DNA from: an uncultured Bacteroidaceae bacterium
Lineage (GTDB): Bacteria; Bacteroidota; Bacteroidia; Bacteroidales; Bacteroidaceae
Direction of reading: 5' to 3'
Assembly: GCA_905234605.1 (NCBI GenBank)
Contig: CAJOIE010000013.1
Location: 1-64,000 of the forward strand
DNA length: 64,000 nucleotides
Part shown: one piece after another, positions 9,136 to 56,161 of the stretch
Position numbering within the stretch: position 1 is the stretch's first letter
How the letters are laid out: each line of letters begins with the position of its first letter
Program-made: the position numbers and the translations under genes
Notes under the pieces: model-generated
The model's input: only the letters and a program-made list of their open reading frames with translations
Database searches by the model: none
What the model was told of the DNA's origin: nothing

Positions 9136-9216
9136 CAGGGTGCATGGTCATGGCGCACACCATGCATGGTCGCAGCGGGCACCATGCACGGTGTGTGGCC
9201 TTCACCATGCACGGTG
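9136..9216. repeat. 22-bp-period palindromic repeat array A (4 units)
   Basis: Four cores: CAGGGTGCATGGTC (9136), CACCATGCATGGTC (9158), CACCATGCACGGTG (9180) and CACCATGCACGGTG (9203). TGCA centres are spaced 22, 22 and 23 bp. The 8-bp linker ATGGCGCA after the first core also occurs in array B inside cobT. The array lies between the divergent phosphoesterase and GH89 promoters and ends about 10 bp before the -33 box of the GH89 promoter. A weaker 21-bp repeat of TTGGCA (9095 and 9116) precedes it. Confidence 0.85.
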
Positions 9217-9226
9217 TGAAAAAAGG

Positions 9227-9255
9227 TTGGCGTGACGGGAAAAACGTTACCTTTG
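9227..9255 (+). promoter_or_regulatory. Promoter of the GH89 gene
   Basis: TTGG at 9227-9230 and TACCTTTG at 9248-9255 are separated by 17 bp, matching the -33/-7 pattern of the Bacteroidota primary sigma factor. The start codon follows 25 bp later. Confidence 0.75.
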
Positions 9256-9280
9256 CGTCATTACCAGCTTACCACGCTAT

Positions 9281-11512
9281 ATGCTTTACTTCACACTCCA
9301 CCATGCCCTGCGCCATGCCCTGCGCAGAGTGCTCGCACCCATGGCTCTTATGGCCATCGCTGCTGCGGCCTATGCTGCCGACCCGCTGCAGGGTCTGCTC
9401 TCGCGCGTGCTGCCCTATGGCGACGATGCCTCGCGTGTGCATTTCACCGTCACCGAGCGTCCTGCCGCGGCTCCCGACAGTTTCAGTCTCACCACGCGCG
9501 GCGGCCATCTCTATGTGCGTGCCAACAGCCGCGTGGCCGCCGCCGCCGGACTGCACTGGTACTTGCAGCACTATGCCCACGCCACCGTCACGTGGGACAT
9601 GCCCACGGCGCGCCTGCCGCGGCGGCTGCCAGGGGTGGACGGCGAGACGCATGCCTGCCGCGTGCCCTACCGCTACTATCTCAATTTCTGCACACATAGC
9701 TACTCCATGGCCTTCTGGGACTGGGAACGCTGGCAGCAGGAGCTCGACTGGATGGCTCTCCACGGCATCAACCTGCCGCTGGTCATTACAGGCTTCGAGG
9801 CCGTATGGGCTCACGTGCTGATGCACGACTACGGCTATGCCACGCTGCGCGATGTGGGCTCCTTCGTGCCCGGTGCCGTCTACATGGGCTGGTTCTTTAT
9901 GAACAACATGACGGCCGAGGGCGGCCCGCTGCCCGACAGTTGGTATGCGCGCCGCCTCGACCTGGCACGCCGCATCATTGAGCGGGCACAGGCCTATGGC
10001 ATGGAGGTCGTGGTGCCGGGCTATGTGGGCATGCTGCCTGCCGACTTCCTGGAGCGTGCCGACCCGCAGCGCGTGGCGCACTGGCAGGCGTCCGACATTG
10101 CCGATGCCGGCATGTGGTGCTCCTTCCGCCGGCCCGCCTTCGTGCGCAACCCGGAGCGGCTGGCCGAGGTGGCTGCCCGCTACTATGCCGCCATCGACAG
10201 CCTTTTCGGTGCTGGCACCATCCATGCCTATGCCATCGACCCCTTCCACGAGGGTGCCGTGCCACAGGGCATAGACCGGCCAGCCGAGGCTGTGACTGCC
10301 ATGTGGCAGGCTCTGCTGCTCCACGACCCCGAGGCTCTCTGGGTGGCTCAGCACTGGCAGGACAATCCGCGTGAGTGGCTCACCCACACGGTGCCGCGCG
10401 GCCGTCTGCTCATTCTCGACCTGCACGGCGAGAGCCATGCCGACACCGTGTGCGGCGGCTACTCCACCGATGCCACGGCACAGCCCCACGACTGGGTGTG
10501 GGGCATGGTGGGCAACTTCGGCGGCAACGTGGGTCTGCACGGACGCCTGAGCCGTCTGCTCACCACGTGCCGGCAGGCCATGGACGGCGCGCCGGCCAAC
10601 GGTCTCAAGGGCATAGGTGCCCTGCCCGAAGGCATCGACAACAATCCCATGCTCTACGACCTGCTCTTCGCGTTGCCCTGGCTCGACGGCTCGCTCACGG
10701 AGCAGCAGTGGGTGGAACAGTATGTGGACATGCGCTACGGTGCCCGCGGCAGTGCGTGCCGCAGCCTGCTGCAGGCATGGCAGCTGCTGGCACGAAGCGT
10801 GTATGCCTGTCCCACCGACGCGCAACAGGGCACCACGGAGAGTGTGCTCATGCAGCGCCCCGACGTGCGGCCGCACACGGTGAGCACCTGGGCCACCTCG
10901 TCGTGGTACTGGGACAAGGACGATGTGCGCCAGGCAGCCCGCCACATGCTGGCAGCTGCCAGGGTCATGGCTGCCAGCGAGAGCTTCCGCCACGACCTCG
11001 TCGACGTGGTGCGGCAGGTGCTGGCCGACGAGGCCCACACGCTGCTCACGCAGCTCTCCACAGCCTCCGGCGCCGAGGCCACGACCATCGCCGACCGCTT
11101 CATGCAGCTGCTCCTCGACCAGGACCGTCTGCTCGGCACACGCCGCGAGTGGCGTCTCGGCACATGGACCGAAGCCGCCCGCTCATGGGGCGACACGCCC
11201 GCCGAAGCCGATGCCTACGAACATGCCGCACGCGCCCTGCTCACCACGTGGGCTGGCCGCACGCAGGCCGAGCAGGGCGGGCTGATAGACTACGCCAACC
11301 GTGAGTGGCAGGGGCTGCTGCGAGGCTATTACTATCCGCGATGGCGTGCTTTCTTCGACAATGGATGCCGCACCGGCACGCCGTGGTTCGAGCAGGTGGA
11401 ATGGCCTTTCGTGGAAGGCCGTTGCGATGCACCCTACGGCTCGTTCACCTCAGCCCCCGAGGGCGATGCCATCGAGGTGGCACGCGAGCTGATGGCTCGC
11501 TATGCTCCATAG
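9281..11512 (+). CDS. Alpha-N-acetylglucosaminidase, GH89 family
   Basis: 743 residues. A signal peptide (residues 1-32, ending AIAAAAYAAD) directs it to the periplasm or surface. The family signature region is present: YRYYLNFCTHSYSMAFWDW near 125 and WMALHGINLPLVITG near 157. The likely catalytic glutamates by comparison with human NAGLU are Glu324 in DPFHEGAVPQG and Glu450 in GALPEGIDNNP. GH89 enzymes remove terminal alpha-linked N-acetylglucosamine from mucin O-glycans and heparan sulfate fragments. Length matches bacterial members. The next gene starts 11 bp downstream, so the two are probably co-transcribed. Confidence 0.93.
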   Translation: MLYFTLHHALRHALRRVLAPMALMAIAAAAYAADPLQGLLSRVLPYGDDASRVHFTVTERPAAAPDSFSLTTRGGHLYVRANSRVAAAAGLHWYLQHYAHATVTWDMPTARLPRRLPGVDGETHACRVPYRYYLNFCTHSYSMAFWDWERWQQELDWMALHGINLPLVITGFEAVWAHVLMHDYGYATLRDVGSFVPGAVYMGWFFMNNMTAEGGPLPDSWYARRLDLARRIIERAQAYGMEVVVPGYVGMLPADFLERADPQRVAHWQASDIADAGMWCSFRRPAFVRNPERLAEVAARYYAAIDSLFGAGTIHAYAIDPFHEGAVPQGIDRPAEAVTAMWQALLLHDPEALWVAQHWQDNPREWLTHTVPRGRLLILDLHGESHADTVCGGYSTDATAQPHDWVWGMVGNFGGNVGLHGRLSRLLTTCRQAMDGAPANGLKGIGALPEGIDNNPMLYDLLFALPWLDGSLTEQQWVEQYVDMRYGARGSACRSLLQAWQLLARSVYACPTDAQQGTTESVLMQRPDVRPHTVSTWATSSWYWDKDDVRQAARHMLAAARVMAASESFRHDLVDVVRQVLADEAHTLLTQLSTASGAEATTIADRFMQLLLDQDRLLGTRREWRLGTWTEAARSWGDTPAEADAYEHAARALLTTWAGRTQAEQGGLIDYANREWQGLLRGYYYPRWRAFFDNGCRTGTPWFEQVEWPFVEGRCDAPYGSFTSAPEGDAIEVARELMARYAP

Positions 11513-24646: not shown

Positions 24647-25771
24647 TCAGAAGTATTTGGTGATGTGGTTGTCGGTGAAGTTGCCCATCTCGCGGAGCAT
24701 GCGCACGGCACTCTCCACGATGGGGTAGGCACAGAGCGCACCCGTGCCTTCGCCCAGGCGCAGGCCGAGGCTCAGCAGTGGCTGGGCTCCCATGGCGCGG
24801 AGCATGAGGCGGTGGCCGCTCTCGTCGCCGCAGTGGCCGAAGATGGCGCAGTCCATGAACGAGGGGTGCAGGCTGCGTGCCACGAGGGCACAGGCGGTCA
24901 TGATGAAACCGTCCACGAGCACCACCATGCCGAGCTCCTCGGCACGGAGCATGGCCCCTACGGCTGCCACCATTTCAAGGCCTCCGAACTCGCGCATGAG
25001 CTCGGTGGCAAGACGTGCGGGGGCTGCCGTGTGTGGCGAAGCACCCTGCATGGTGACGAGCGTCTCCCTGCATGGTGACGGCTCGCACCCTGCATGGTGA
25101 TGGCGCACACCCTGCACGGTGTTCTGCCATCGGTCTATGCTCTGCTGCAGCACTCTCAGCTTGTGGCTCACACCCTCGCTGCTGAGGCCTGCTCCGGCTC
25201 CTACGCATTGCTCTAAGGGTAGGCCTAAGAGCACGCTCATCCAGATGGACGACGGCGAGGTGTTGGCTATGCCCATCTCGCCTATGGAGAGCACGTTGCA
25301 GCCCTCGGCGGCGGCGAGGCTGGCCATGTCGCGCCCTACGGTCATGGCTGCCTCCATCTGCTCAGGTGTGAGTGCCGGCTGGTGGAGGAAGTTGGCTGTG
25401 CCGCGGGCCACCTTGCGGTGCACTATGCCCTCGACGCCGCTCAGGTCGTGGTCCACGCCCACGTCGACCACATGTAGCTCAAAGCCATGCTGGCGGCAGA
25501 ACATGTTGACACCGCCGCCGCCGCGGGTGAAGTTCACCATCTGCTGCCATGTCACGCAGCGCGGCGAGAGGCTGACACCCTCGCGCTCGATGCCGTGGTC
25601 GCCGCCGAAGAGCAGGTGCACAGGGTGCCGCAGCTCGGGCTCCAGCGTGTGCTGCACGAGGCCTATCTGCATGGCTATCTGTTCCAGACGGCCCAGGGAG
25701 CCGAGTGGCTTGTTGAGGTGGTCTATCTTGGCTTGCAGCTGGTGGCGCAAGCTGTCCATGTCGGTTGTCAT
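24647..25771 (-). CDS. cobT: Nicotinate-nucleotide-dimethylbenzimidazole phosphoribosyltransferase with an in-frame repeat insertion
   Basis: 374 residues from ATG at 25771 (MTTDMDSLRHQLQAKIDHLN). It makes alpha-ribazole phosphate from nicotinate mononucleotide and dimethylbenzimidazole or a related base. Family motifs: NKPLGSLGRLEQIAMQIG, LFGGDHGIEREGVS, IGEMGIANTSPSS, and the catalytic Glu in LRLGEGTGALCAYP. Residues about 217-244 (VQGVRHHHAGCEPSPCRETL, then VTMQGAS) have no counterpart in CobT enzymes I know. They are encoded exactly by array B (25042-25121), between the HKLRVLQQSIDRW helix and the REFGGLEMVAAVGAML segment. The reading frame is kept, so the enzyme may still work. The -7 box at 25777-25784 lies only 5 bp before the ATG. 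Confidence 0.93.
   Translation of the reverse strand: MTTDMDSLRHQLQAKIDHLNKPLGSLGRLEQIAMQIGLVQHTLEPELRHPVHLLFGGDHGIEREGVSLSPRCVTWQQMVNFTRGGGGVNMFCRQHGFELHVVDVGVDHDLSGVEGIVHRKVARGTANFLHQPALTPEQMEAAMTVGRDMASLAAAEGCNVLSIGEMGIANTSPSSIWMSVLLGLPLEQCVGAGAGLSSEGVSHKLRVLQQSIDRWQNTVQGVRHHHAGCEPSPCRETLVTMQGASPHTAAPARLATELMREFGGLEMVAAVGAMLRAEELGMVVLVDGFIMTACALVARSLHPSFMDCAIFGHCGDESGHRLMLRAMGAQPLLSLGLRLGEGTGALCAYPIVESAVRMLREMGNFTDNHITKYF
25042..25121. repeat. 22-bp-period palindromic repeat array B (4 units) inside cobT
   Basis: Cores CACCCTGCATGGTG (25042), CTCCCTGCATGGTG (25064), CACCCTGCATGGTG (25086) and CACCCTGCACGGTG (25108), spaced exactly 22 bp. The third linker, ATGGCGCA, also occurs in array A. 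Three 22-bp periods equal 66 bp, so three-unit gain or loss keeps the cobT frame. Confidence 0.92.
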
Positions 25772-25776
25772 GGGCA

Positions 25777-25784
25777 CAAAGGTA
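25777..25784 (-). promoter_or_regulatory. -7 element directly before cobT
   Basis: The minus strand reads TACCTTTG, a full -7 match. Transcription would start at or within a few bases of the cobT start codon, suggesting a leaderless mRNA or use of the internal ATG at 25759. Confidence 0.55.
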
Positions 25785-25819
25785 GGCAAAAAGTGTGTGA
25801 GGAAAGCAGACAAAGGCTG

Positions 25820-28464: not shown

Positions 28465-30693
28465 CTACTCGGCGAAGGGGAGGTAGTCGGTGTTGTGCAC
28501 GACACGGTCGTTGAGCTCGGCCAGCTTGGCGCGGTTCCAGCGCTCGGTGGTGCCCACGAGGTAGCCCGTGATGCGCTGCAGGCGGTCGAGGTTGTCGCTG
28601 CCGCAGTGGGGGCACTTCTCTATGCTCTCGGCTGTCTCGTAGCCGCAGTCCATGCAGCGGATGCGTGTGTGGTTGACGCTGCCGTAGCCGATGTTGAGGG
28701 CGTCCATCATGTCCACTATGTTCATCACTGCCTCGGGGTTGTGCGTGGCGTCGCCGTCTATCTCCACATAGAATATATGTCCGCCGCGCGTGAGTTCGTG
28801 GTAGGGAGCCTCGACCTCTGCCTTGTGGCGTGCGGAACACTTGTAGTAGACGGGCACGTGGTTGGAGTTGGTGTAGTACTCACGGTCGGTGATGCCGGGC
28901 AGCGAGCCGAAGGTCTTGCGGTCGCCGCGTGTGAAGCGTCCGCTAAGTCCTTCTGCCGGCGTGGCCAGCACGCTGTAGTTGTGCTGGTATTGCTGTGAGA
29001 AGTCGTTGACGCGGTCGCGCATGTAGGTCACTATCTTGAGCCCGAGTTCCTGGGCATGTTCGCTCTCTCCGTGGTGCTTGCCGGTGAGGGCCACGAGGCA
29101 TTCGGCCAGACCGATGAAGCCTATGCCCAGCGTGCCCTGGTTGATGACGCTCTCGATGGTGTCGTTGGGGTGCAGCTTCTCGGCTCCGAGCCAGAGGCTG
29201 TGCATCACGAGGGGGAACTGCTTGGCGAAGGCTGTGCGCTGGAACTCGAAGCGCTCGTGCAGCTGCCGTGCGGCGAGTGCGAGCAGGTTGTCGAGCTTGG
29301 CCATGAAGGCTGCCACGCGCTCTTCCTCGTTCTTGATGTTCATGCACTCGATGGCTATCTTCACGATGTTGATGGTGGTGAAGCTGATGTTGCCGCGCCC
29401 GATGGATGTCTTGGGGCCGAAGCGGTTCTCGAACACGCGGGTGCGGCACCCCATGGTGGCCACTTCGTGGAGGTAGCGTTGTGGGTCGTCGGCGCGCCAC
29501 TCCTCGCTGTAGTTGTATGTGGCGTCGAGGTTGATGAAGTTGGGGAAGAAGCGGCGCGCCGTGACCTTGCAGGCGAGGCTGTAGAGGTCGTAGTTGCGGT
29601 CGGTGGGCAGGTAGCTGACACCGCGTTTCTTCTTCCATATCTGTATGGGGAAGATGGCAGTGACGCCGGAGCCTACGCCCTCGTAGGTGCTGTTGAGTAT
29701 CTCGCGGATGACGCAGCGTCCCTCGGCCGAGGTGTCGGTGCCGTAGTTGATGGATGAGAACACCACTTGGTTGCCGCCGCGGCTGTGGATGGTGTTCATG
29801 TTGTGTATGAATGCTTCCATTGCCTGGTGCACGCGGCCCACGGTCTTGTTGACGGCGTGCTGGATGACGCGTGCCTCGCCCTCGAGGCCGTCGAGTGGCT
29901 TGTTGAGGTAGTCATCGAGCGGCACTTGATAGAGGTGTGAGTAGTCTTGTGCCATGAGAGCCTCGAGGTTCTTCATCTCCTCGATGAAGGTGAGGCGCAC
30001 GTAGGGTGCGAGGTAGAAGTCGAAGGCGGGAATGGCTTGTCCGCCGTGCATCTCGTTCTGTGCCGTCTCCATGCTGATGCATGCCATGACGGATGCTGTC
30101 TCGATGCGCTTGGCGGGGCGGCTCTCGCCGTGGCCGGCCTGGAAGCCTCCGCCGAGCACGTGGTCGAGCGGGTGCTGCACACATGTGAGCGACTTGGTCG
30201 GGTAGTAGTCTTTGTCGTGTATGTGCATGTAGTTGTGCTGGACGGCTTCGCGCACTTCGTCGGAGAGCAGGTAGTCGTCCACGAAGGGCTTGGTGGTCTC
30301 TGAGGCGAACTTCATCATCATGCCGGCTGGCGTGTCGGCGTTCATGTTTGCGTTCTCGCGTGTGACGTCGTTGCTCTTGATGTTGATGATTTCGAGGAAC
30401 ATCTCGCGTGTCTTGGCCTTGCGTGCTATGCTGCGCTGGTTGCGGTACTGGATGTAGATCTTGGCCACGTCCTTGCGCGAGCTCTTCATAAGCTCCAGCT
30501 CCACGAGGTCCTGTATCTCCTCGACGGTCATCTGGGAGCGTCCGCGCATGGCTATGCGGTCGGCTATCTGGTGGATGAGCTGTGCGTCCTCGCCCTCTGG
30601 TGTCTGGAGCATGGCTTTGCGTATGGCGGCTACAATCTTCTCGTCGTTGAAACCCACGATGCGTCCGTCGCGTTTGACTACTGTCTGTATCAT
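28465..30693 (-). CDS. nrdD: Anaerobic (class III) ribonucleoside-triphosphate reductase
   Basis: 742 residues from ATG at 30693 (MIQTVVKRDGRIVGFNDEKI); the frame runs further upstream but crosses the promoter. N-terminal ATP-cone about 1-95, then the ten-stranded barrel (SIGRGNISFTTINIVKIAIE, GIGFIGLAECLVALTG), a C-terminal zinc ribbon (CMDCGYETAESIEKCPHCGS) and the glycyl-radical site in RITGYLVGTTERWNRAK. It reduces ribonucleotides to deoxyribonucleotides without oxygen, and fits a strict anaerobe. Confidence 0.96.
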   Translation of the reverse strand: MIQTVVKRDGRIVGFNDEKIVAAIRKAMLQTPEGEDAQLIHQIADRIAMRGRSQMTVEEIQDLVELELMKSSRKDVAKIYIQYRNQRSIARKAKTREMFLEIINIKSNDVTRENANMNADTPAGMMMKFASETTKPFVDDYLLSDEVREAVQHNYMHIHDKDYYPTKSLTCVQHPLDHVLGGGFQAGHGESRPAKRIETASVMACISMETAQNEMHGGQAIPAFDFYLAPYVRLTFIEEMKNLEALMAQDYSHLYQVPLDDYLNKPLDGLEGEARVIQHAVNKTVGRVHQAMEAFIHNMNTIHSRGGNQVVFSSINYGTDTSAEGRCVIREILNSTYEGVGSGVTAIFPIQIWKKKRGVSYLPTDRNYDLYSLACKVTARRFFPNFINLDATYNYSEEWRADDPQRYLHEVATMGCRTRVFENRFGPKTSIGRGNISFTTINIVKIAIECMNIKNEEERVAAFMAKLDNLLALAARQLHERFEFQRTAFAKQFPLVMHSLWLGAEKLHPNDTIESVINQGTLGIGFIGLAECLVALTGKHHGESEHAQELGLKIVTYMRDRVNDFSQQYQHNYSVLATPAEGLSGRFTRGDRKTFGSLPGITDREYYTNSNHVPVYYKCSARHKAEVEAPYHELTRGGHIFYVEIDGDATHNPEAVMNIVDMMDALNIGYGSVNHTRIRCMDCGYETAESIEKCPHCGSDNLDRLQRITGYLVGTTERWNRAKLAELNDRVVHNTDYLPFAE

Positions 30694-30753
30694 TTCCGGC
30701 TGGTGTTGGTATGTGTTTTGGCTGGTATGTATTTGCTTAGTGCGAAAGCGGTG

Positions 30754-30785
30754 CAAATGTAGATGATAGTCCCAAAACGTGCAAT
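30754..30785 (-). promoter_or_regulatory. Promoter of nrdD-nrdG
   Basis: On the minus strand ATTG (30785-30782), a 20-bp spacer and TACATTTG (30761-30754). The leader to the ATG at 30693 is about 55 nt. Confidence 0.72.
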
Positions 30786-31102
30786 AGTTGAAAGGTGTAA
30801 ATGTCAAAGTTTTCCAAAACAAAATCCCAACATGTTGATTTACAGAGACGTGCAATTTCGACTACAGGTGAAAGTTGTCCAAAATGGACGACCTGGTGTT
30901 TGCCCTTGCGGGCTGAAAAGTTGTAGAATGCTATCTCTCAGCGTTCTATGCTTCATCCCCTCAAGTGGGCTCTTGCAGGCGGGCATGCCACCTCTCTGCA
31001 AGGCAACGGGTTACGACGTGCGGCGAGGCGCATGGCTGTGTGCGTGGTGCGCGCAATGGGCGTGTGGGGGAGTGGGAAGCGGTGGTGCTGGGTGTGGAAA
31101 AT
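30786..31102. other. Non-coding gap upstream of nrdD
   Basis: I see no credible gene here. The first 110 bases are noticeably more A/T-rich than the surroundings. One imperfect hairpin is visible at about 30868-30893 (GTTGTCC paired with GGACGAC). The remainder is G-rich and runs into array C. Confidence 0.5.
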
Positions 31103-31205
31103 GGTGATGCAGGATGGTGAAAAACACCGTGCAGGGTGTGCGTGATGACCGTGCAGGGTGTGCGTAATGACCATGCAGGGTGTTGCCGCATGAGGGTGCA
31201 GGATG
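31103..31205. repeat. 22-bp-period palindromic repeat array C (5 units)
   Basis: TGCA centres at 31108, 31130, 31152, 31174 and 31197 (spacing 22, 22, 22, 23). Best cores: CACCGTGCAGGGTG (31125), GACCGTGCAGGGTG (31147), GACCATGCAGGGTG (31169). On the minus strand these read CACCCTGCACGGTG with linkers ATCACGCA and ATTACGCA, close to the ATGGCGCA linker of arrays A and B. It lies just downstream of the BadF-type kinase gene; on that strand one core is followed by TTTTT. Confidence 0.9.
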
Positions 31206-40313: not shown

Positions 40314-40386
40314 GATCCGTTAGCTCAGCTGGTAGAGCACAACACTTTTAATGTTGGGGTCTTGGGTTCGAGCCCCAAACGGATCA
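40314..40386 (+). tRNA. tRNA-Lys (anticodon TTT)
   Basis: A complete 73-nt cloverleaf. Acceptor arms GATCCGT and ACGGATC pair fully; D arm GCTC/GAGC; anticodon stem CAACA/TGTTG around the loop CTTTTAA with anticodon TTT at 40347-40349; T arm TTGGG/CCCAA around TTCGAGC. Discriminator A at 40386; the CCA end is not encoded. It stands alone with its own promoter. Confidence 0.97.
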
Positions 40387-40578: not shown

Positions 40579-40660
40579 ATGTGTGCAGGGTGATTAGGGT
40601 GCAGTGTGCAGGGTGGATGCTCCATGCCGTGCAGGGTGTGCAGCGGCAGGGTGCAGGGTG
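40579..40660. repeat. 22-23-bp-period palindromic repeat array D (4 units)
   Basis: TGCA centres at 40584, 40607, 40630 and 40652 (spacing 23, 23, 22). All four cores share GTGCAGGGTG; their left halves are degenerate. Three extra TGCA copies (40600, 40639 and one overlapping) disturb the pattern. The array lies 10 bp beyond the tracrRNA terminator and downstream of tRNA-Lys. Confidence 0.8.
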
Positions 40661-40760: not shown

Positions 40761-40790
40761 CAAATGTAGGCAAAAAGTGGTTGTGTGCAA
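40761..40790 (-). promoter_or_regulatory. Promoter of the tracrRNA
   Basis: On the minus strand TTG at 40790-40788, 19-bp spacer, TACATTTG at 40768-40761. The -7 box sits about 8 bp before the predicted RNA start. Confidence 0.72.
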
Positions 40791-40809
40791 GCCTTTTTGT
40801 CTATTTTTA
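40781..40809 (+). promoter_or_regulatory. Weak promoter candidate for cas9
   Basis: TTG at 40781, 18-bp spacer, TATTTTTA at 40802-40809, 27 bp before the cas9 ATG. It interleaves with the divergent tracrRNA promoter, so the two could compete. The -7 box lacks the final G. Confidence 0.4.
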
Positions 40810-40836
40810 CGCCATCAATCACTGATAACCTGTATT

Positions 40837-43800
40837 ATGGAACGTATTCTGGGTATAGACACGGGCACCAACAGCCTCGGATGGGCCATCGTGGAGCGTG
40901 AGGGCGATGAGTGTCGCCTTGTGGAACGGGGTGTAAACATCTTTGCCGAGGGAGTGAAGATGGAGAAAGGCAATGAGAAGTCGAAGGCTGCCGAACGCAC
41001 GGAGCACCGTGCGCAGCGACGCACATACTGGCGGCGCAAGGTGCGCAAGGTGCGCCTGCTGACAATCCTGACCAAGCACCACCTGTGTCCGCCGCTGGAG
41101 GGCGATGCCCTGCGTGAGTGGCGTCAGGGAGGAGCCTATCCGTCCGACGAGGCGTTCCTCGCATGGCAGCGCACAGAGGACAAGGATGGTGTCAACCCCT
41201 ACCGTTTCCGCCACATCTGCCTGACGCAGCGGCTCGACCTGACCGACCTGACGCAGCGCTACATGCTCGGCCGTGCGCTCTACCATCTGAACCAGCGGCG
41301 CGGCTTCCTCTCCAACCGCAAGGATGCTGCCGACGGAGAGGAGAGCGGCAAGGTGAAGACAGGCATCAGCGAGCTGTCGCAGGCTATGAAAGCTGCCGGC
41401 TGCCGCTATCTTGGCGACTACTTCTATCAGCTCTATGAGCGTGGCGAGCACATACGCCGCCGCTACACGGCCCGCAATGAGCACTACCTGGCCGAGTTCG
41501 AGGCCATCTGCGAGCGGCAGCAGATAGACGACGACCTGCGCCGGGAGCTGCGCCGCGCCATCTTCACACAGCGGCCGCTGCGCTCGCAGCGCGCCACCGT
41601 GGGCACATGCACCTTCGAGCCGTCGAAGCCACGCCTGGCCCTCTCGCATCCGCTCTATGAGGAGTTTCGCTTATGGCAGTTCGTCAACAACATACGCATC
41701 GAGACACCCTACGAGGCTGGCATGCGCCCGCTGTCGGCCACGGAGGTGGAGGCCATAGTGCCACTCTTCAAGCGCAAGAGCAAGCGCACCTTTCCCTTCG
41801 AGGACATAGCCAAGAAGCTCTCCACGGGCAAGAACAACTACTGCTACTACAAAGACAGCGTGCAGCGACAGTTCCGCTTCAACTATGCCATGGACACCCA
41901 GGTGAGCGGCTGCCCCGTGACGGCGCAGCTGGAGGACATCTTCGGCACGCCGTGGGTGGACAAGGCTGCCGAGGTGTACACCCTCTCTGCGGGCAAGACA
42001 CGCCTGCAGGTGATGAACGACGTGTGGCATGCCCTCTTCGCCTTCACCGACGACGACCACCTTCGCCAGTTTGCCAGCGAGCGCCTGCAGCTCAGTGGGG
42101 ACAAGCTGCAAGCCTTTGTGGGGATACAGCCGCCACAAGGCTATGCCTCGCTCAGCCTGAAGGCCATACGCAAGATACTGCCCTACATGCGAGACCAGCG
42201 CCTGCGCTACTCGCATGCCGTGTTCCTCGCCAACCTCTGCGAGGTGGTGCCGCGCCACCTGTGGGAAGTGGAACAGTCGCGACAGGCGGTGATAGAGACC
42301 GTGGTCGCTGCCATGGAGGCACACGCTGCCATGGAGGACGGCGAGCGAGGCCTCGAGCAGTGCGTGAAGGACGTGCTCACGGCACGCTTCGGAGCCACGG
42401 AGCAAGTGCTGAAGAAGCTCTATCACCCCTCCATGACGGACCTCTATCCCCGTCGCCGCCCCGACGACGTCGGACTCTACCAGCTGGGCTCGCCACGCAC
42501 CGGCAGTGTGCGCAACCCCATGGCCATGCACTCGCTCTTCCGCCTGCGCAAGGTAGTCAACATGCTGCTGCGCGAGGGCAAGATAGATGCCGACACGACC
42601 GTCAACATAGAGTTCGCACGCGAACTCAACGATGCCAACCGCCGCAAGGCCATCAAGGAATGGCAGACACAGCAGGAAACGAAGCACAGCCAGGCGCGTG
42701 AGTCGATACGGCAGCTCTACCGTGAGCAGTGCCATGCCGACATAGACCCCACCGCCGACGACGATGTCAGGAAATACCTGCTGTGGGAAGAACAGGAGCA
42801 CCGATGCCTCTACACCGGCGAGAGCATCGCCGTCAGCGACTTCCTCGGCCCCAATCCTCGCTACGACATAGAGCACACCATACCCCGCAGTGCCGGCGGC
42901 GACACCACCATGGCCAACCTCACGCTATGCTCCATGCACTTCAACCGCGAGGTGAAGCGCACGAAGCTGCCATCGCAGCTGGCCAATCATGCCGAGATAC
43001 TCCAGCGCATCGACCTCTGGCGCGAGAGGGCAGAGAAACTCAGCAGCCAGATACGCAAGCTCCGGGGCAGTGCGGCATCGACCAAGGAGGCCAAAGACAC
43101 CGTCATACAGAAGCGCCACCGCCTCGTGCTCGAGCGCGACTACTGGCGCGGCAAGCATGAACGCTTCTGCATGACCACCGTGCCCGAAGGCTTCGCCCGA
43201 CGGCAGGGCCCGGACAACAGCGTCATCAGTCGCTACGCACGCCTCTACCTCCGCTCGGTGTTCCGCCACGTGTATATAGTGAAAGGCATAGCCACGGCCG
43301 ACTTCCGCAAGCTGTGGGGCATACAGGAAAAAGACACCGCCAAGCAGCGCGACAACCACGCCCACCACTGCATAGACGCCGTCACCATAGCCTGCATAGG
43401 CAAGGAGCAGTATGCACGTCTGGCCGAATACTATCATGCCGACGAGGAGCACCGCATGCACGGACTTGCCAAACCCCATTTCCCCAAGCCATGGCCCGCC
43501 TTCGCCGAGGACATGAAGCATCTGGCCGACGAGCTGCTCATAGCCCACTACACACAGGACAACATGGCCAAGCACACGCGCCGCCGTGCATCAGGCAGCA
43601 TAGCCGAAGGCGACACGGCACGCGCGCCGCTGCATCAGGACACCTACTACGGAGCCATCATGCGCGACGGCGAGCTCAAGTATGTGGTGCGCAAGCCACT
43701 CGACGCCCTTGCCGACGCCGACGTGGACAAGATTGTAGATGAGGCCGTCGCGCAGCATGTGCGCCAAGCCATCAGCCGCCATGGCAGCCTCAGGAAAGCC

Positions 43801-44454
43801 ATACAGGCGGACGACGTGTGGATGAACCGCGAGAAAGGCATACCCATCAGAAAGGTGAGGCTGTCTGCCACCACCGTGACACGCCCGATGCACATCCGGC
43901 AGCAGCGCGACCCGTCGCGCCACCCCTACAAGCAGCACTACCACGTGATGAACGACCGCAACTACCTCATGGCAATATATATAGGCGAGAACAGCAGAGG
44001 CAAGGAGAAAAGGGAGTTTGAGCTCGTCAGCTGCATGGATGCAGCCACACACTACCGCCGCAGCAACGACCGGACATACGGCCTCGTGCCGCAGACCAGC
44101 CCCGAGAACAACTACCCGCTGGCATACTGTCTCAAGATAGGAACAATGGTGCTGCTCTATGAGCGCACACCCGAGGAAGTGTGGGACCTCGACAAGGCGC
44201 AGCTGACACGCAGACTATATAAGGTGACGGGGCTGTCGTCGATGGTGGTAGGTGGGAATGCATACGGCACTATTGAAATGACATTCCATCAGGAGGCACG
44301 TATGAGCACCGACTTAAAGGCAAAGAACGGTGCATATCAATCGGGCGAAGCATTACGTGCACGCATCAAGATGCTGCACACCCAGTTCAAGGCACTCACC
44401 CGCGGCGTCGACTTCGAGCTCAACGACCTTGGAGAGATAAGGAGGCTGATATGA
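40837..44454 (+). CDS. cas9: CRISPR-associated endonuclease Cas9, type II-C
   Basis: 1205 residues from ATG at 40837 (MERILGIDTGTNSLGWAIVE); an in-frame start at 40777 lies in the promoter. RuvC-I has Asp8; the Arg-rich bridge helix is about 50-85 (AERTEHRAQRRTYWRRKVRK); RuvC-II is VNIEFARELN with Glu592; HNH is YDIEHTIPRS with His680 and MHFNREVK downstream; RuvC-III is NHAHHCIDAVTIAC with His843/844 and Asp847. All nuclease residues are therefore present. Size and the cas9-cas1-cas2 order without cas4 or csn2 indicate II-C. cas1 overlaps its stop by 4 bp. Base composition resembles the flanking genes. Confidence 0.97.
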   Translation: MERILGIDTGTNSLGWAIVEREGDECRLVERGVNIFAEGVKMEKGNEKSKAAERTEHRAQRRTYWRRKVRKVRLLTILTKHHLCPPLEGDALREWRQGGAYPSDEAFLAWQRTEDKDGVNPYRFRHICLTQRLDLTDLTQRYMLGRALYHLNQRRGFLSNRKDAADGEESGKVKTGISELSQAMKAAGCRYLGDYFYQLYERGEHIRRRYTARNEHYLAEFEAICERQQIDDDLRRELRRAIFTQRPLRSQRATVGTCTFEPSKPRLALSHPLYEEFRLWQFVNNIRIETPYEAGMRPLSATEVEAIVPLFKRKSKRTFPFEDIAKKLSTGKNNYCYYKDSVQRQFRFNYAMDTQVSGCPVTAQLEDIFGTPWVDKAAEVYTLSAGKTRLQVMNDVWHALFAFTDDDHLRQFASERLQLSGDKLQAFVGIQPPQGYASLSLKAIRKILPYMRDQRLRYSHAVFLANLCEVVPRHLWEVEQSRQAVIETVVAAMEAHAAMEDGERGLEQCVKDVLTARFGATEQVLKKLYHPSMTDLYPRRRPDDVGLYQLGSPRTGSVRNPMAMHSLFRLRKVVNMLLREGKIDADTTVNIEFARELNDANRRKAIKEWQTQQETKHSQARESIRQLYREQCHADIDPTADDDVRKYLLWEEQEHRCLYTGESIAVSDFLGPNPRYDIEHTIPRSAGGDTTMANLTLCSMHFNREVKRTKLPSQLANHAEILQRIDLWRERAEKLSSQIRKLRGSAASTKEAKDTVIQKRHRLVLERDYWRGKHERFCMTTVPEGFARRQGPDNSVISRYARLYLRSVFRHVYIVKGIATADFRKLWGIQEKDTAKQRDNHAHHCIDAVTIACIGKEQYARLAEYYHADEEHRMHGLAKPHFPKPWPAFAEDMKHLADELLIAHYTQDNMAKHTRRRASGSIAEGDTARAPLHQDTYYGAIMRDGELKYVVRKPLDALADADVDKIVDEAVAQHVRQAISRHGSLRKAIQADDVWMNREKGIPIRKVRLSATTVTRPMHIRQQRDPSRHPYKQHYHVMNDRNYLMAIYIGENSRGKEKREFELVSCMDAATHYRRSNDRTYGLVPQTSPENNYPLAYCLKIGTMVLLYERTPEEVWDLDKAQLTRRLYKVTGLSSMVVGGNAYGTIEMTFHQEARMSTDLKAKNGAYQSGEALRARIKMLHTQFKALTRGVDFELNDLGEIRRLI

Positions 44455-45343
44455 TGAAGCAGACACTGGTCTTCACCTATCCGGCATCGCTCTCGCTGCG
44501 CGACAGCCAGCTGGTGATAGACATCAAGGAGAGCTCTCAGGTGGTGACACGCCCCATAGAGGACATAGGCGTCATAGTGGTGGAGAACCAGACGGTGCGC
44601 ATGACAGTGCCGCTGCTGGGTGCCCTGACCGACAATAATGTGGCCGTGGTCTTCTGCGATGCCAGGCCATGCCGCACAGCATGCTCATGCCACTCGAGGG
44701 CAACGCCACGCAGCAGGAGAGCTACCGCTGTCAGCTCGAAGCGTCGGAGCCCACGCGCAAGCGCGCATGGCAGCAAGTGGTGGAGAGCAAGATACGCAAC
44801 CAGGCAGCATTGCTGACCAGCATCGGCATGGACGGCGGCCTGCTCAAGCCATACTACACGAATGTGCGCTCGGGCGACACCGACAACCGCGAGGGAGCAG
44901 CGTCGCGCATATACTGGAGCACACTCTTCGGCAAAGGCTTCCGCCGTGAGCGCGACGGCGCACCGCCCAACAATATGCTCAACTACGGCTACGCCATACT
45001 CCGTGCCGCTGTGGCACGCGCGCTGATAGGCTCGGGGCTATACCCCGCCTTCGGCATATTCCACCGCAACCGCTACAACGCTTTCCCGCTGGCCGACGAC
45101 ATGATGGAGCCATACCGCCCCTTTGTCGACGAGATAGTCTATCGCTTGCATATAGACGGTGCAGCCGATGAGCTCACGCGCGACATCAAGGCCCAGCTGC
45201 TGCACATCCTGTTCGCAGACGTAAGAATGGGCACCGTGCGACGTCCGCTCGAGGTGGCACTGACCATGACCACGGCATCGCTGCTCAAGATGTTCAAGGG
45301 CGAGACAGCCAGGCTGTCGTTGCCTGCAATGGCTGCGTCATGA
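44451..45343 (+). pseudogene. cas1: CRISPR integrase Cas1, interrupted by a one-base frameshift
   Basis: Frame 1 (ATG 44451 or 44454) gives the N-terminal beta domain of Cas1 up to NNVAVVFCDAR, then drifts into unrelated sequence and stops at 44816. The rest of Cas1 continues in another frame from about 44666 (MPHSMLMPLEGNATQQESYR) to 45343. One extra base near 44666-44668 would restore the normal junction, giving about 298 residues. The catalytic residues all lie in the second part: Glu in NREGAASRIYW, His in FGIFHRNRYN, Glu in DDMMEPYRPF, corresponding to about 148, 205 and 220 in the restored protein. No slippery heptamer is visible. ATG 44669 could allow a C-terminal fragment. Confidence 0.88.
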
Positions 45344-45681
45344 CAGAATATTGCCTGAATGCATATCGCATCATGTGGCTGTTCGTGTTCTTCGACCTTC
45401 CCGTCGTAACCAAGAAAGAGCGAAAGGTGGCGGCGCAGTTCCGCAAGAGCCTCATGAAGGACGGCTTCACTATGCTGCAATACTCTGTCTACATACGCCA
45501 TTGTGCATCAGGAGAAAGTCAGGCCGTGCACACACGGCGCGTCAAGGCCAGCCTGCCAGAGACAGGAATGGTGAGCATACTCAGCGTAACCGATAAGCAG
45601 TATGGCAACATCATCAACTATTGGGGAAAGACAAAAAAGGCAGAACACATAGCAGAACCCTTGCAACTGGAGTTTTTTTAA
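45340..45681 (+). CDS. cas2: CRISPR-associated protein Cas2
   Basis: 113 residues (MTEYCLNAYRIMWLFVFFDL). The ferredoxin-like fold start WLFVFFDLPVVTKKERK carries the conserved Asp; QYSVYIRHC and GMVSILSVTDKQYGNI follow. Cas2 dimer bridges two Cas1 dimers during spacer integration. Its ATG overlaps the cas1 stop (ATGA), so it depends on translation of the broken cas1 for coupling. Confidence 0.95.
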   Translation: MTEYCLNAYRIMWLFVFFDLPVVTKKERKVAAQFRKSLMKDGFTMLQYSVYIRHCASGESQAVHTRRVKASLPETGMVSILSVTDKQYGNIINYWGKTKKAEHIAEPLQLEFF

Positions 45682-45773
45682 TATCTTCGCACCCAGAAAC
45701 CATACACATCAACCACTTCCTGAACGTAGCTTCCAAGCTAACAGCTTGATTTACCACACTCTACACCACTTAG
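45661..45773 (+). promoter_or_regulatory. CRISPR leader with candidate promoter
   Basis: TTG at 45661, 18-bp spacer, TATCTTCG at 45682-45689 overlap the end of cas2 and would start a plus-strand pre-crRNA about 80 bp before the first repeat, matching the crRNA orientation implied by the tracrRNA. The remaining leader is A/T-richer than the genes around it and contains a short AAGCTaacAGCTT inverted repeat. Confidence 0.5.
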
Positions 45774-47825
45774 GTTGTGGTTTGATGTAGGAACACAGAC
45801 TTATACACCGGCTGACGCTCCAACGGCTGCTTGCTCTCCGTTGTGGTTTGATGTAGGAACACAGACTTATACACCTGGATGTTGGTGTTAGCATCGTTCA
45901 TTTGGGTTGTGGTTTGATGTAGGAACACAGACTTATACACCTAGCTCAGAGATAGTATCACGTCCTCGCTCGTTGTGGTTTGATGTAGGAACACAGACTT
46001 ATACTCTTCTTCGCGTTGTGGTTTGATGTAGGAACACAGACTTATACACCTTATACCGAAATATCGTTATATCGACTTCCGTTGTGGTTTGATGTAGGAA
46101 CACAGACTTATACACCCTCAGGGCTGAGCTCGCTAACCAAGGCATCGTTGTGGTTTGATGTAGGAACACAGACTTATACACCACACAGACATCACGCATA
46201 CGCATGGCGACAGTTGTGGTTTGATGTAGGAACACAGACTTATACACCGAGCTCGGCCTCCTCCAAGATAAGCAGGTTGTTGTGGTTTGATGTAGGAACA
46301 CAGACTTATACACCTTACCTAAAGGCATATTGTAGTGGTATATGTTGTGGTTTGATGTAGGAACACAGACTTATACACCAGAATACCATAGCGGCCGGGA
46401 ACATCGCGTGTTGTGGTTTGATGTAGGAACACAGACTTATACACCTGAAGAATGATATGTCAGAGTTCCTGAAATGTTGTGGTTTGATGTAGGAACACAG
46501 ACTTATACACCACTGGAATAGCATGTCCTCTCAGATACAGCGTTGTGGTTTGATGTAGGAACACAGACTTATACACCTCAATAACGGAATACTGCTCGTC
46601 CATGTCAGTTGTGGTTTGATGTAGGAACACAGACTTATACACCTCATGTTTCTGTTTTTTTACAGAATTGAGGTTGTGGTTTGATGTAGGAACACAGACT
46701 TATACACCAGCCATAACTTTAATTGTTTTAAGTTGTTTGTTGTGGTTTGATGTAGGAACACAGACTTATACACCTGAGGCACCATGTGGGAGCACCGTCG
46801 ATTTGTTGTGGTTTGATGTAGGAACACAGACTTATACACCATTTCTAATCCTCTCAATTCTTTCAAAGAGTTGTGGTTTGATGTAGGAACACAGACTTAT
46901 ACACCGATGCCATATTATTTGAAAATTATAGGTTAGTTGTGGTTTGATGTAGGAACACAGACTTATACACCTCTCGCTGTTTGTCAAATTTGCGTACTTC
47001 AGTTGTGGTTTGATGTAGGAACACAGACTTATACACCTCATAGTTTATCCCTTCAGTTTGCAGAAGGTTGTGGTTTGATGTAGGAACACAGACTTATACA
47101 CCCAAGTGCAGACAGACGGCTCAACTGTTTTAGTTGTGGTTTGATGTAGGAACACAGACTTATACACCAAAACTGATGGCTTGTGAACTTACCTCTTGTT
47201 GTGGTTTGATGTAGGAACACAGACTTATACACCTGCGTATCTCTGCGTATTTCTGCGTGACCTGTTGTGGTTTGATGTAGGAACACAGACTTATACACCC
47301 AAACAACCGAAAACAATATGAAACTGAACGTTGTGGTTTGATGTAGGAACACAGACTTATACACCGGAACGTAGGCCGTTTCAAATACGGCACAGTTGTG
47401 GTTTGATGTAGGAACACAGACTTATACACCGGCGACTGCACGAATGGTGGCGTGACATCGGTTGTGGTTTGATGTAGGAACACAGACTTATACACCAAAA
47501 AATTAAAAATCAATCACTTAAAAACAGTTGTGGTTTGATGTAGGAACACAGACTTATACACCATTATTCATGTACTCATTTTTGCGTGCCATGTTGTGGT
47601 TTGATGTAGGAACACAGACTTATACACCCCGGAAGGAAGAAGCCAAGGCACGCCGCAAGTTGTGGTTTGATGTAGGAACACAGACTTATACACCTTCTCG
47701 TCGGGGGGGTACCCCCCCGAACCGTTGTGGTTTGATGTAGGAACACAGACTTATACACCTCTATATCGCGGCTGCCAGCGTATTGATTAGTTGTGGTTTG
47801 ATGTAGGAACACAGACTTATACACC
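45774..47825 (+). CRISPR. Type II-C CRISPR array, 32 repeats and 31 spacers
   Basis: A 36-bp repeat beginning GTTGTGGTTTGATGTAGGAA and ending ACTTATACACC. Thirty-one copies are identical over the full 36 bp, including the last. Spacers: 23 of 30 nt, 7 of 29 nt, and one of 10 nt. Unit 4 is aberrant: its repeat (45972-46004) lacks the last 3 bases and its spacer (46005-46014) has 10 nt, a 23-bp deletion across the junction. I saw no duplicated spacers. The 5' half of the repeat pairs with the predicted tracrRNA. Confidence 0.99.
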
Positions 47826-53400: not shown

Positions 53401-54201
53401 GTGGTTGTCCACCACTATTATGTTATAGGTGAACGATGTCTCCTGGGCGAGTGCGCTGCGTAAGGCATCCTCTATGGTGCGCTCGCGGTTGCGCACAGGT
53501 ATGATGACCGATGCCTCCACGTCGAAGTGTTCGGCGGCGAGCTTCACGTTGTCCACCTCATCGGGAGCCAGCAGCGCGCCTATGGCGTGCAGATGGCGTG
53601 TGCACGCGCGCTCCATCTCTACTTGACGTGAGCGCAGGCGCGGGTCCACGTAGTCGAACTGCTTCTGGCCGGAGAGGCGCGTGTCGGTCTCCACCTCGGT
53701 GTAGAGCATTTCGCTGATGTGCACTGGCAGACAGCGGCGTGAGAGGAAGAGGCGCAGGTCGTAGAGGCCGGCCCACTGATATTCGCGCAGCCGCTCCTGG
53801 GCAAAGTAGTCGCGCACGTCGGCCGTGCGCAGCAGCAGCAGCGAGCCCATGTCGAAGTCGTCGCGCACGGAGCCTTCCTGATAGTCGATGAGCGGGTGCG
53901 CCACCACCTCGCCCGACGGCAGCTGCTGCCAGTGGTCGGCATAGAGGAGCGAGGCACCGCTGTCGCGTGCCACGATGAGCATACGCTCCAGTGCATGGTA
54001 GCCCAGACGCAGGTCGAAGCTCTTGGTGTAGAGCAGCATGTAGGGTGCTGTGGCCTGCTGACATATATGGCGCAGCGAGCGTGTCTGGAACGGGTTGTCT
54101 ATGAGGAGTGTCTGTGCCACGAGCGGGCAGGCAGACAGGGCGGCACGGGTAGCCTCGGCGTCGGCCATGGTGGCGAAATGGAGGAAGCAGTCTATTTGCA
54201 C
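50485..54201 (-). CDS. Three-part fusion: GT2 glycosyltransferase, DUF4922 (HIT-like), SpoIID
   Basis: 1238 residues from a GTG at 54201; ATG 12 codons later is possible. Residues about 1-225 resemble a degenerate GT-A domain. About 230-475 is a GT2 glycosyltransferase: [31 protein letters not shown] with the DxD-type motif, [15 protein letters not shown]. About 535-825 is DUF4922, a nucleotidyl-transferase-like HIT domain with CFLCDENRP and PDHMHLQAG (HxHxQ). A Ser/Pro/Gly linker (about 835-875) leads to a SpoIID/LytB domain (about 890-1238): [58 protein letters not shown] see no signal peptide, which is odd for a peptidoglycan-acting SpoIID unit. DUF4922-SpoIID fusions occur in Bacteroidales; function unknown. 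Confidence 0.85.
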
Positions 54202-54276
54202 AGGGGTGTAGGGTTGAATGTTGGCTTAATGCTGAAGATTGAAGGCCTAATGCCGTGCGGCGGCTGCCTTCAGCCA

Positions 54277-54284
54277 CAAAAGTA
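54277..54284 (-). promoter_or_regulatory. -7 element of the GT2-DUF4922-SpoIID operon
   Basis: The minus strand reads TACTTTTG, a match to TAnnTTTG, 75 bp before the GTG start. Confidence 0.6.
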
Positions 54285-54294
54285 GGACTTTCTG

Positions 54295-54325
54295 TTTCTT
54301 TATTTCCATTCCGTGCATATATTTG
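54295..54325 (+). promoter_or_regulatory. Promoter of the GH109-like gene
   Basis: TTTC at 54295-54298, 19-bp spacer, TATATTTG at 54318-54325. Start codon 51 bp downstream. Divergent from the GT2 fusion promoter. Confidence 0.65.
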
Positions 54326-54376
54326 CAGCTGTCATTGCCAATAAACTACTAACCTAAACCATCTCTAAAAGCAATT

Positions 54377-55960
54377 ATGAAGAAGCTTCTGACACTTGTG
54401 CTGTGTGCTGCCGCCATAGTGGGTGTGCGTGCACAGTCGCTCTCCGTCACTCCCTCCGACTGGCACTGGGAGAAAGGCACCATCGTTGTCAACACACCTC
54501 AGCGTCCCGCAGGGCAGACCGATGTGCTCGGACTCACGACTCCCAAGCTCACCACCGTGCGTGTGGCCTTCTGCGGTCTCGGCATGCGCGGCCCTGGTGC
54601 CGTGGAGCGTTTCACCTACATCCCTGGCGTGCAGATTGTGGCTCTCTGCGACTTTGAGGAGGCCCGTGCCGAGCGTTGCCAGGAGTTCCTGCGCAAGGCC
54701 GGTCTGCCGCCGGCAGCCATCTACTCAGGCGAGAAAGGCTATGAGGAAGTGTGCCGCCGCGAGGATGTCGACCTCGTCTATGTCGCCACCGACTGGGACC
54801 ACCACTTCCCCGTGGCCAAGTGTGCCTTGGAGAACGGCAAGCACACAGCCATCGAGGTGCCGTCGGCCATGAACCTCGCGCAGTGCTGGGAGCTCATAGA
54901 GCTCAGCGAGCGCACACGCCGCCACTGCATGATACTCGAGAACTGCTGCTACGACTGGTATGAGCTGCGCGCCCTCAATATGGCCCAGAACGGCGTCTTC
55001 GGCGAGATACTGCGCGCCGAGGGTGCTTATATCCACAACCTCGACCCCTTCTGGGACTACTATTGGAAGAACCCCGACGGCAGCGACCCTGCGAAGCTCG
55101 GATGGCGCATGAAGTATAACATGGAGAACCGAGGCGACGTCTACGCCACCCACGGCCTCGGCCCTGTGGCTCTGGCCCTCAACATACACCGTGGCGACCG
55201 TTTCACCACCCTCGTGGCCATGGACACCAAGGCTGTGCACGGCCCCGACTATGTGGAGGCTCACACCGGACAGCGTCCCGCCAACTTCCGCAACGGCGAC
55301 CACACCACCACACTCATGCGCACGGCCGAGGGTAAGGTGGTCGAGATACAGCACAACGTGATGAACCCGCAGCCCTACAACCGTCTCTACAAGCTCACCG
55401 GCACCAAGGGCTACGCCACCAAGTACCCCGAAGAGCATTTCGCCCTCGACCCCGGACAGCTGCAGGCCAGCGGCGTGGTGCCGCAGGTGGACGACCTCTC
55501 CTCGCACGGCTTCCTGCCCGAAGCCGAGCATCAGGCACTCATCGCCAAATATGAGCACCCCATCATTCTCAAGTACGGCAAGATGGCACAGGAAGTGGGC
55601 GGCCACGGAGGCATGGACTTCTTCATGGACGCACGCCTCGTCTACTGCCTCCAGAACGGGCTGCCCCTCGACATGGACGTCTACGACCTCGCCGAGTGGT
55701 GCTGTCTGGCAGAGCTCGGCTCGCTGTCCATGGACAACAACTGCGCCAGCGTGGCGTTCCCCGACTTCACCCGCGGCGCATGGCGCAAGGTGAACGGCTA
55801 CCAGTTCGCGTGGGCCACACCCGAGGCCGAAGCTGCCGCCGAGGCCGCTGCACAGCAGAGCACAGCCGCACAGAAGGAGCTCTGCACCCAGAAGAAGCTC
55901 TGGGAGAAGTACGACAAGGAACGCGCCAAGCGTGCCAAGAAGCAGGCCAAACGCCGCTGA
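54377..55960 (+). CDS. Secreted Gfo/Idh/MocA-family oxidoreductase, GH109-like
   Basis: 527 residues. Signal peptide 1-21 (ending IVGVRAQS). NAD-binding Rossmann motif VRVAFCGLGMRGPGAVERF near 61-80; EVPSAMNLAQCWELIELSER near 170 follows the conserved Glu-Lys-Pro-type strand; ILENCCYDWYELRALNMAQN and GGHGGMDFFMDARLVYCLQN are typical of GH109. GH109 enzymes use bound NAD to remove alpha-N-acetylgalactosamine, for example from mucin or blood-group A, by oxidation-elimination. The C-terminal 50 residues are Ala/Glu then Lys/Arg rich (KYDKERAKRAKKQAKRR), an unusual basic tail. Confidence 0.88.
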   Translation: MKKLLTLVLCAAAIVGVRAQSLSVTPSDWHWEKGTIVVNTPQRPAGQTDVLGLTTPKLTTVRVAFCGLGMRGPGAVERFTYIPGVQIVALCDFEEARAERCQEFLRKAGLPPAAIYSGEKGYEEVCRREDVDLVYVATDWDHHFPVAKCALENGKHTAIEVPSAMNLAQCWELIELSERTRRHCMILENCCYDWYELRALNMAQNGVFGEILRAEGAYIHNLDPFWDYYWKNPDGSDPAKLGWRMKYNMENRGDVYATHGLGPVALALNIHRGDRFTTLVAMDTKAVHGPDYVEAHTGQRPANFRNGDHTTTLMRTAEGKVVEIQHNVMNPQPYNRLYKLTGTKGYATKYPEEHFALDPGQLQASGVVPQVDDLSSHGFLPEAEHQALIAKYEHPIILKYGKMAQEVGGHGGMDFFMDARLVYCLQNGLPLDMDVYDLAEWCCLAELGSLSMDNNCASVAFPDFTRGAWRKVNGYQFAWATPEAEAAAEAAAQQSTAAQKELCTQKKLWEKYDKERAKRAKKQAKRR

Positions 55961-55994
55961 CCGGCAGGCAGCAGCGTGACAGCGTAGGCCACAC

Positions 55995-56161
55995 GCCCCT
56001 GCACCATAGGCTGCCGCCACCCTGCATGGTGACAGCCGCCACCCTGCACGGGTGAGCACTACCACCCTGCACCCTCTCTGCAAAGGGGGTGCAGGGTGTT
56101 TTTGCATACTGTGCAGGTTCCTGACGCGACACCTTTTAACACTCTTGCCAACACCTTTTAA
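55995..56161. repeat. 22-23-bp-period palindromic repeat array E (6 units plus 2 degenerate)
   Basis: TGCA centres at 56000, 56023, 56045, 56068, 56090 and 56112 (spacing 23, 22, 23, 22, 22). Best cores: CACCCTGCATGGTG (56018) and CACCCTGCACGGGTG (56040). The same register continues as two direct repeats ACACCTTTTAA at 56129 and 56151, again 22 bp apart, up to the promoter of the BI-1 gene. Confidence 0.88.
56063..56103 (+). terminator. Terminator formed by two inverted repeat units
   Basis: CACCCTGCACCC (56063-56074) pairs perfectly with GGGTGCAGGGTG (56087-56098) and is followed by TTTTT. The stem is made from neighbouring units of array E, 100 bp after the GH109-like stop codon. Confidence 0.8.

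Follow-up and report, generated by a model that had tools for sequence, protein, structure and literature searches.

Dispersed 22-23-bp-spaced arrays of an oriented near-palindrome in a Bacteroidaceae genome, with the spacing recurring under other core words in congeners

Five arrays in the window

The window, by which we mean the whole 64,000-nucleotide stretch of DNA analysed (contig CAJOIE010000013.1 of an uncultured Bacteroidaceae bacterium, assembly GCA_905234605.1), contains five short arrays of TGCA-centred units, none of which is assigned a strand. Array A (9136-9216; chain start 9141) has four units at steps of 22, 22 and 23 bp and occupies the divergent intergenic region between genes at 7550-8947 (minus strand) and 9281-11512 (plus strand). 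Array B (25042-25121; chain start 25047) has four units at steps of 22, 22 and 22 bp and is carried in frame by cobT (24647-25813, minus strand; DBI_PRT, PF02277). Array C (31103-31205; chain start 31108) has five units at steps of 22, 22, 22 and 23 bp, three of them strong (31125-31182), and lies upstream of nrdD (28465-30855, minus strand). Array D (40579-40660; start 40584), located between a tRNA gene and cas9, has four units in the 22/23 chain and extra TGCA. Array E (55995-56120; start 56000), downstream of a GH109-type gene, has six units in its chain, of which three are strong (56018-56076).

Two further features were observed near these arrays. Array E has additional TGCA at 11-bp steps (56068, 56079, 56090), half the usual period. 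The tRNA gene (40314-40386) directly precedes array D and cas9, and the region 40777-47825 holds the Cas9 gene (HNH_4, RuvC_III), cas1, cas2 and then a CRISPR array with 36-bp repeats, GTTGTGGTTTGATGTAGGAACACAGACTTATACACC.

The original prediction described five arrays of four to six units in which all 18 TGCA steps measure 22 or 23 bp, and a chain scan agrees. With a chain defined as at least four TGCA with every step 22 or 23 bp, the window holds exactly five chains (23 centres and 18 steps, all of 22 or 23 bp), and no TGCA chain arose in 60 Markov-1 resamplings of the window. Fourteen other tetramers were scanned in the real window: ten gave no chain and four gave one or two (GGTG 2, CTGC 2, GCAG 2, GTGC 1), all four being letters of the arrays' own motif. 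Gene calls from a custom hexamer script place A, C, D and E in intergenic DNA and B inside the cobT frame, as had been predicted. The predicted 14-bp near-palindrome holds as a repeated core. Its consensus does not: CACCMTGCAYGGTG is found at six sites exactly and at eight within one mismatch, since several units of A and C-E are degenerate, and the oriented consensus given below fits better.

Core, spacing and linker across the source genome

The genome of the window, designated G000, is 2.36 Mb in 26 contigs and 87% complete; it is the sole genome of its species compared here. Its gene content, and the names attached to a few homologues of its CobT, place the host in the Bacteroidales. Exact copies of the motif number 57+84 (strand+strand, as in all counts written this way) against none for the reversed pattern used as control, and copies with one mismatch number 201+225 against 2+3. 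The motif is thus far above chance in the genome. Finer measurements were made on 458 kb of G000, comprising the window and 394 kb picked for motif matches; because 20 stretches (all stretches examined are numbered with L) were selected in this way, array densities from them are not genome-wide rates, and the window is free of that bias. A weight matrix finds 234 sites in these 458 kb and 20 in the reversed control. Of 101 neighbour spacings of up to 120 bp, 54 are 22 bp and 32 are 23 bp, with spacings of 44, 45 and 67 bp marking places where a unit was missed. There are 31 arrays of at least three units.

A better consensus, derived from 138 cores, is the oriented CACC-R-TGCA-G-GGTG (CACCRTGCAGGGTG). 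TGCA is almost invariant. The two flanking bases form a Watson-Crick pair in 13 of the 138 cores, compared with 46.5 (sd 5.2) expected, and this avoidance of complementarity makes the site an oriented one. Restriction avoidance was considered as the cause of this asymmetry and explains part of it only: CTGCAG stands at 0.40 of expectation and GTGCAC at 0.86, yet GTGCAC, though much less avoided, is absent from the 14 commonest core centres. As a separate observation, the 458 kb contain no copy of TCTAGA, ACTAGT or GCTAGC, four of CATATG (63 expected) and 130 of CTGCAG (326 expected), which suggests that these missing or rare words reflect restriction avoidance.

Cores are shared between loci and linkers are not. 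Identity between loci is 0.75 for the core and 0.32 for the linker, which is 8-9 bp long and variable in sequence. Sharing of linkers among 36 distinct arrays does not exceed that in shuffles, and the flanks of these arrays have only 11 11-mers in common; of the ten printed, most are motif-like and a few are isolated. As linker sharing is at chance level, the linker common to A and B is no evidence of kinship between them. What does stand of the predicted linker conservation is a GC step near the linker centre: among 56 linkers of 8 bp, GC is found at positions 4-5 in 22 and at positions 3-4 in 16, where shuffling gives a mean of 4.4 per position. Positions 4-5 lie 11 bp from the core dyad.

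Adjacent units resemble each other more than shuffled ones do (11.29 versus 10.58, sd 0.10), and some arrays, such as those in L016 and L026, are near-perfect tandem copies. Local tandem duplication clearly contributes to the arrays. Both observations are in keeping with neutral or selfish minisatellites, whose 22-bp units would expand by slippage, would spread by slippage or with a mobile element, and would be tolerated without function in intergenic DNA and protein loops. We regard this as an unlikely account of the arrays as a whole. Slippage alone leaves unexplained why one core recurs at many loci with unrelated linkers, why the spacing is so strictly 22 or 23 bp, and why GC sits close to the middle of the linker in species whose cores differ. 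Of the minisatellite option raised in the original prediction, local tandem duplication is retained, and purely neutral slippage is unlikely.

Array positions at cobT and nrdD

The codons of array B fall in a gap between two pieces in which the CobT proteins of many congeners (other species of the same genus) align. In the comparison, which covers 18 of the 28 congener CobT loci and missed the other ten, the length of this loop is variable and several of the 18 proteins carry other, unrelated short repeats there. The loop therefore tolerates insertions, and some arrays, B lying in such a repeat-accepting coding loop, may be merely tolerated.

Upstream of nrdD, none of 13 congeners has a 22-bp array (15 were read, two of them on the wrong side). 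The array position is not conserved at nrdD, the sole locus tested. Both the cobT loop and this lack of conservation count in favour of minisatellites. By eye, two boxes resembling TTTTGGAAAACTTTT are present upstream of nrdD in many congeners (L253-L267). The search for flanking genes common across species grouped 160 flank proteins into four clusters, none found in more than two species; in this clustering L245, which belongs to G144, was entered under G123, and loci that overlap one another entered the count repeatedly.

The same spacing with other words in congeners

We scanned 138 congeners, labelled G0xx or G1xx. Stretches of G089 and G118 and one of G054 were picked by pattern matches, and the remaining congener stretches are contig starts or cobT-bearing contigs. 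The paired half-site of the G000 motif has no match in 135 of the 138 species; the exceptions are G054 and G118 with one each and G089 with four. G118 and G054 each have one 22-bp array of their own containing the TGCANGGTG half-site. The scan of related genomes that the original prediction had called for thus shows a motif nearly private to one species and a 22-23-bp spacing that recurs in its congeners.

Other words take the place of the core elsewhere. Pairs of GTGGTGCG at 22 bp number 152+142 in G024 (reversed control 16+15), with two each in G045 and G000, those of G000 inside the L016 array, and none in 136 other genomes; the reversed control gave one or two in seven other genomes. GGARCRYGYTCC pairs number 46 in G123, with one each in G098 and G144. 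ACGACCGGTCGT is found 15 times in G015, five times in G054, three times in G134 and once in each of three more genomes, against a control of 0-4 per genome; the three of G134 are not above its own control of two. A 23-bp word, GGTACA..TGTACC, occurs 17+21 times, in G089 only. G123 has at least four different 22-bp palindromes and G012 has two; with at least three further palindromes in G123, one genome may hold several words.

The period itself was surveyed with Tandem Repeats Finder. In 15 congeners, 39 arrays have period 22, some of them non-palindromic, compared with one of period 20 and four of period 23; the 22-bp array of G127 is listed by the program as period 44. Sequence from other families of the order (262 kb) yielded no period-22 array and one of period 23. 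Other periods are nearly as common in the same congeners (36 arrays of period 12, 35 of period 14 and 20 of period 21), and this general richness in tandem repeats is another point for minisatellites. No 22/23 arrays were found in the 120 kb of G108 or the 20 kb of G083.

The GC step accompanies the period. GC occupies linker positions 4-5 in 11 of 18 cases in G024 (shuffled 1.5) and in three of five in G123 (0.6); in G015/G054 it is one position off, at 5-6 in three of four and at 4-5 in none. Across species the period is kept, and with it a GC close to the middle of the linker, some 11 bp from the core; what changes is the core word.

Arrays of common spacing may have more than one purpose or more than one origin across species. 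This is indicated by G089, where the 23-bp palindromic arrays lie inside a longer dispersed MITE-like element with conserved leader and tail (L065-L068, L283, L286), which also counts for the minisatellite reading, and by some arrays of G015, G054 and G134, which run into T-tracts.

Gene context and the RNA-hairpin question

Among the 31 G000 arrays, 17 lie between codirectional, seven between convergent and three between divergent genes, and four overlap genes called by the custom caller, of which only the cobT case is sure. The median distance from an array to a 3' end is 43 bp (n=29) and to a 5' end 147 bp (n=23), so that arrays sit closer to 3' ends. Considering intergenic regions of at least 100 bp, an array is present in 3 of 25 divergent, 6 of 14 convergent and 17 of 55 codirectional regions, a comparison in which the arrays themselves lengthen the regions. 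In codirectional contexts, array orientation is independent of gene direction (20 versus 17 with both genes on the plus strand, 18 versus 16 with both on the minus strand). Between divergent genes all 16 oriented units point the same way; these come from few arrays.

The bias towards 3' ends and away from divergent regions is what would be expected if arrays, once transcribed, formed hairpins acting as terminators or shielding 3' ends, a role that has been suggested for REP sequences. Several arrays of G015, G054 and G134 read into a T-run, some with complementary neighbours, and array ends bear TTTT more often than AAAA in G024 (7 versus 3 of 34) and the G015 group (5 versus 1 of 24), but not in G123 (0 versus 2 of 12). 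In G000 the signs of an RNA structure are absent: TTTT and AAAA each occur at five of 72 array ends, compensated changes within core pairs do not go beyond single cases, complementarity between adjacent units does not exceed that of shuffled ones (10.46 versus 10.55), and orientation disregards gene direction. Rfam covariance models run over the arrays of the window, L016 and L026 matched only the tRNA at 40314-40386. The hairpin option, listed in the original prediction, is therefore without support in G000, and we consider it quite improbable for the arrays in general. That neighbours are alike yet not complementary, with neither covariation nor an excess of T-runs, suggests that the arrays function as double-stranded DNA and grow by local duplication.

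Mobile elements and known repeat families

Small, extragenic, high-copy palindromes known as REP sequences are found mostly between unidirectional and convergent genes, and some are species-specific; the majority have a GTAG or CGTC tag next to a hairpin, and those with GTAG are linked to RAYT transposases (available text of PMC3733652). G000 arrays are likewise short, palindromic, dispersed and extragenic, in high copy and in similar gene context, so that one might envisage miniature elements of REP type, mobilized by a RAYT transposase or by some other mobile element. We judge this very improbable. Unlike the GTAG REPs with their RAYT partners, as that text presents them, G000 (at 87% completeness) has no match to Y1_Tnp (PF01797), which speaks against RAYT as the mover there; in the genus, 8 of 31 genomes have a match, five of them over the cut-off. 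Flanks and linkers of the 36 arrays are moreover not common beyond shuffles and isolated 11-mers. The mobile mini-element suggested initially is thus unsupported in G000; the congener G089, with its array in a longer element, differs. REPs are not known to form arrays of fixed 22-bp period.

Other sources were sought without a clear lead. For a plasmid or phage origin, blastn of one array (L016) against plasmid and phage records gave no match, and pattern scans of viral contigs matched zero and two contigs. In L192, one of these two, three CACCRTGCA sites form a row of 23-bp period at 2942-2996, upstream of an ATPase-like ORF that we take, by eye, to be an AAA/DUF4143 ATPase. A link of this kind was dropped for G000, where PF13635 has no match; 30 DUF4143 loci of congeners show no consistent array. 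A Tannerella MAG was the sole match in the genome-contig pattern scan, from which G000's own or very near genomes were possibly omitted, and its repeat is different. Plasmid iterons are several Rep-binding repeats spaced about 22 bp apart at one origin, next to the rep gene; G000 arrays resemble them in spacing and differ in being dispersed through the genome.

Porphyromonas gingivalis, like G000, belongs to the Bacteroidales. In the open PMC literature, the scope of the search (subscription papers and preprints lie outside it), no description of such arrays was found. The closest published elements, as far as the available texts describe them, are BrickBuilt and STAR. BrickBuilt is a MITE/minisatellite of P. 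gingivalis made of intergenic 23-nt tandem units with predicted stem-loops, dispersed in the genome and restricted to P. gingivalis and P. gulae; the same paper mentions 22-nt tandem repeats in P. gingivalis strain W83 (available text of PMC4596501). G000 arrays share with BrickBuilt, on that description, the intergenic and dispersed location, the unit of about 23 nt and the narrow host range (PMC4596501). BrickBuilt, however, consists of contiguous 23-nt direct repeats free of spacers and has a conserved leader and tail, whereas G000 has 14-bp cores with variable 8-9-bp linkers and flanks that are not common to its loci (PMC4596501, same text). IS5-like terminal inverted repeats are a further mark of BrickBuilt; in G000 the arrays offered no definable element ends. 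G000 also has more loci than the paper describes, with 31 arrays of at least three units seen in 458 kb. The G089 arrays, with conserved leader and tail, are closer to BrickBuilt so described.

STAR elements of staphylococci have a repeated 14-bp motif, locus-specific spacers, an intergenic location and loci that differ between species (available text of PMC3532100). G000 arrays agree with this description in having a short motif, locus-specific spacers and mostly intergenic positions, and in loci that differ between species, the last judged only at nrdD and by flanking genes. STAR was searched across its genus with one consensus and has spacers of at least 40 bp, unlike the arrays here, where the core differs and linkers are 8-9 bp (PMC3532100). 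The available text mentions neither a near-palindrome nor helical phasing for STAR, and G000 arrays show a near-palindrome with 22/23 spacing. As they are described in these texts, none of BrickBuilt, STAR and REP combines one spacing with many species-private words.

Proposed phased rows of protein-binding sites

The original prediction also proposed that two helical turns per unit place all cores on one face of the DNA, for binding by an oligomeric protein. This receives partial support and survives best of the options, given the strict 22/23 spacing, the conserved cores with unshared linkers, the GC near the opposite dyad and the independence of gene direction. A DNA-binding protein that acts cooperatively would be expected to leave conserved cores, unrelated linkers, strict two-turn spacing and a second contact at roughly one turn. 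At about even confidence, we propose that a putative DNA-binding protein, with a specificity that differs between species, occupies each array as a row of sites that are helically phased and bound cooperatively. We infer from the sequences that this protein exists, that it is probably dimeric, and that its specificity changes from species to species.

Under this proposal the protein would bind cooperatively along one face of the DNA, with sites every two turns or so, and the GC step would be a second contact about one turn from the core dyad. New units would arise by local 22-bp duplication; linkers would then drift while binding kept cores and spacing, and the core and linker identities fit selection on cores together with drift of linkers. 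When specificity changed between species, arrays would be rebuilt at new places. Because position is not conserved at nrdD and gene direction has no effect, the most likely role is chromosome structuring or genome-wide regulation rather than control of single genes. That all arrays share one function is something we only infer, in view of the two sampled congeners without arrays, the one genome of several words and the terminator-like or MITE-embedded arrays elsewhere.

A broader extension of phased binding is offered more tentatively, as somewhat unlikely: a genus-wide nucleoprotein system with species-specific DNA dialects, in which a fast-changing putative protein would coat two-turn arrays across the chromosome. 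Each species would write its own core word and place its arrays anew, but would retain the 22-bp plan and the GC contact some 11 bp from the core. Against one word per species, in the binding-site proposal as well as in this extension, stand the palindromes of G123 (at least four) and G012 (two), and against species-private words stands the TGCANGGTG half-site in one array each of G118 and G054. The several words of G123 in particular reduce the weight that we place on this extension.

Descriptions of dispersed intergenic repeats in bacteria usually treat a family as copies of one sequence. In the present case, what recurs from species to species of one genus is an architecture: a 22-bp period, an oriented near-palindrome and GC close to the opposite dyad. 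The sequence itself is nearly private to each species. The four other words, those of G024, G123, G015/G054 and G089, are ready DNA baits for finding the putative protein. If a protein does read the arrays, its recognition word turns over between sister species, and its co-evolution with hundreds of sites would be directly testable. A dialect system, if true, would give bacteria a parallel to the way in which satellite DNA and its binding proteins co-evolve, and its arrays could mark self DNA among crowded sister species.
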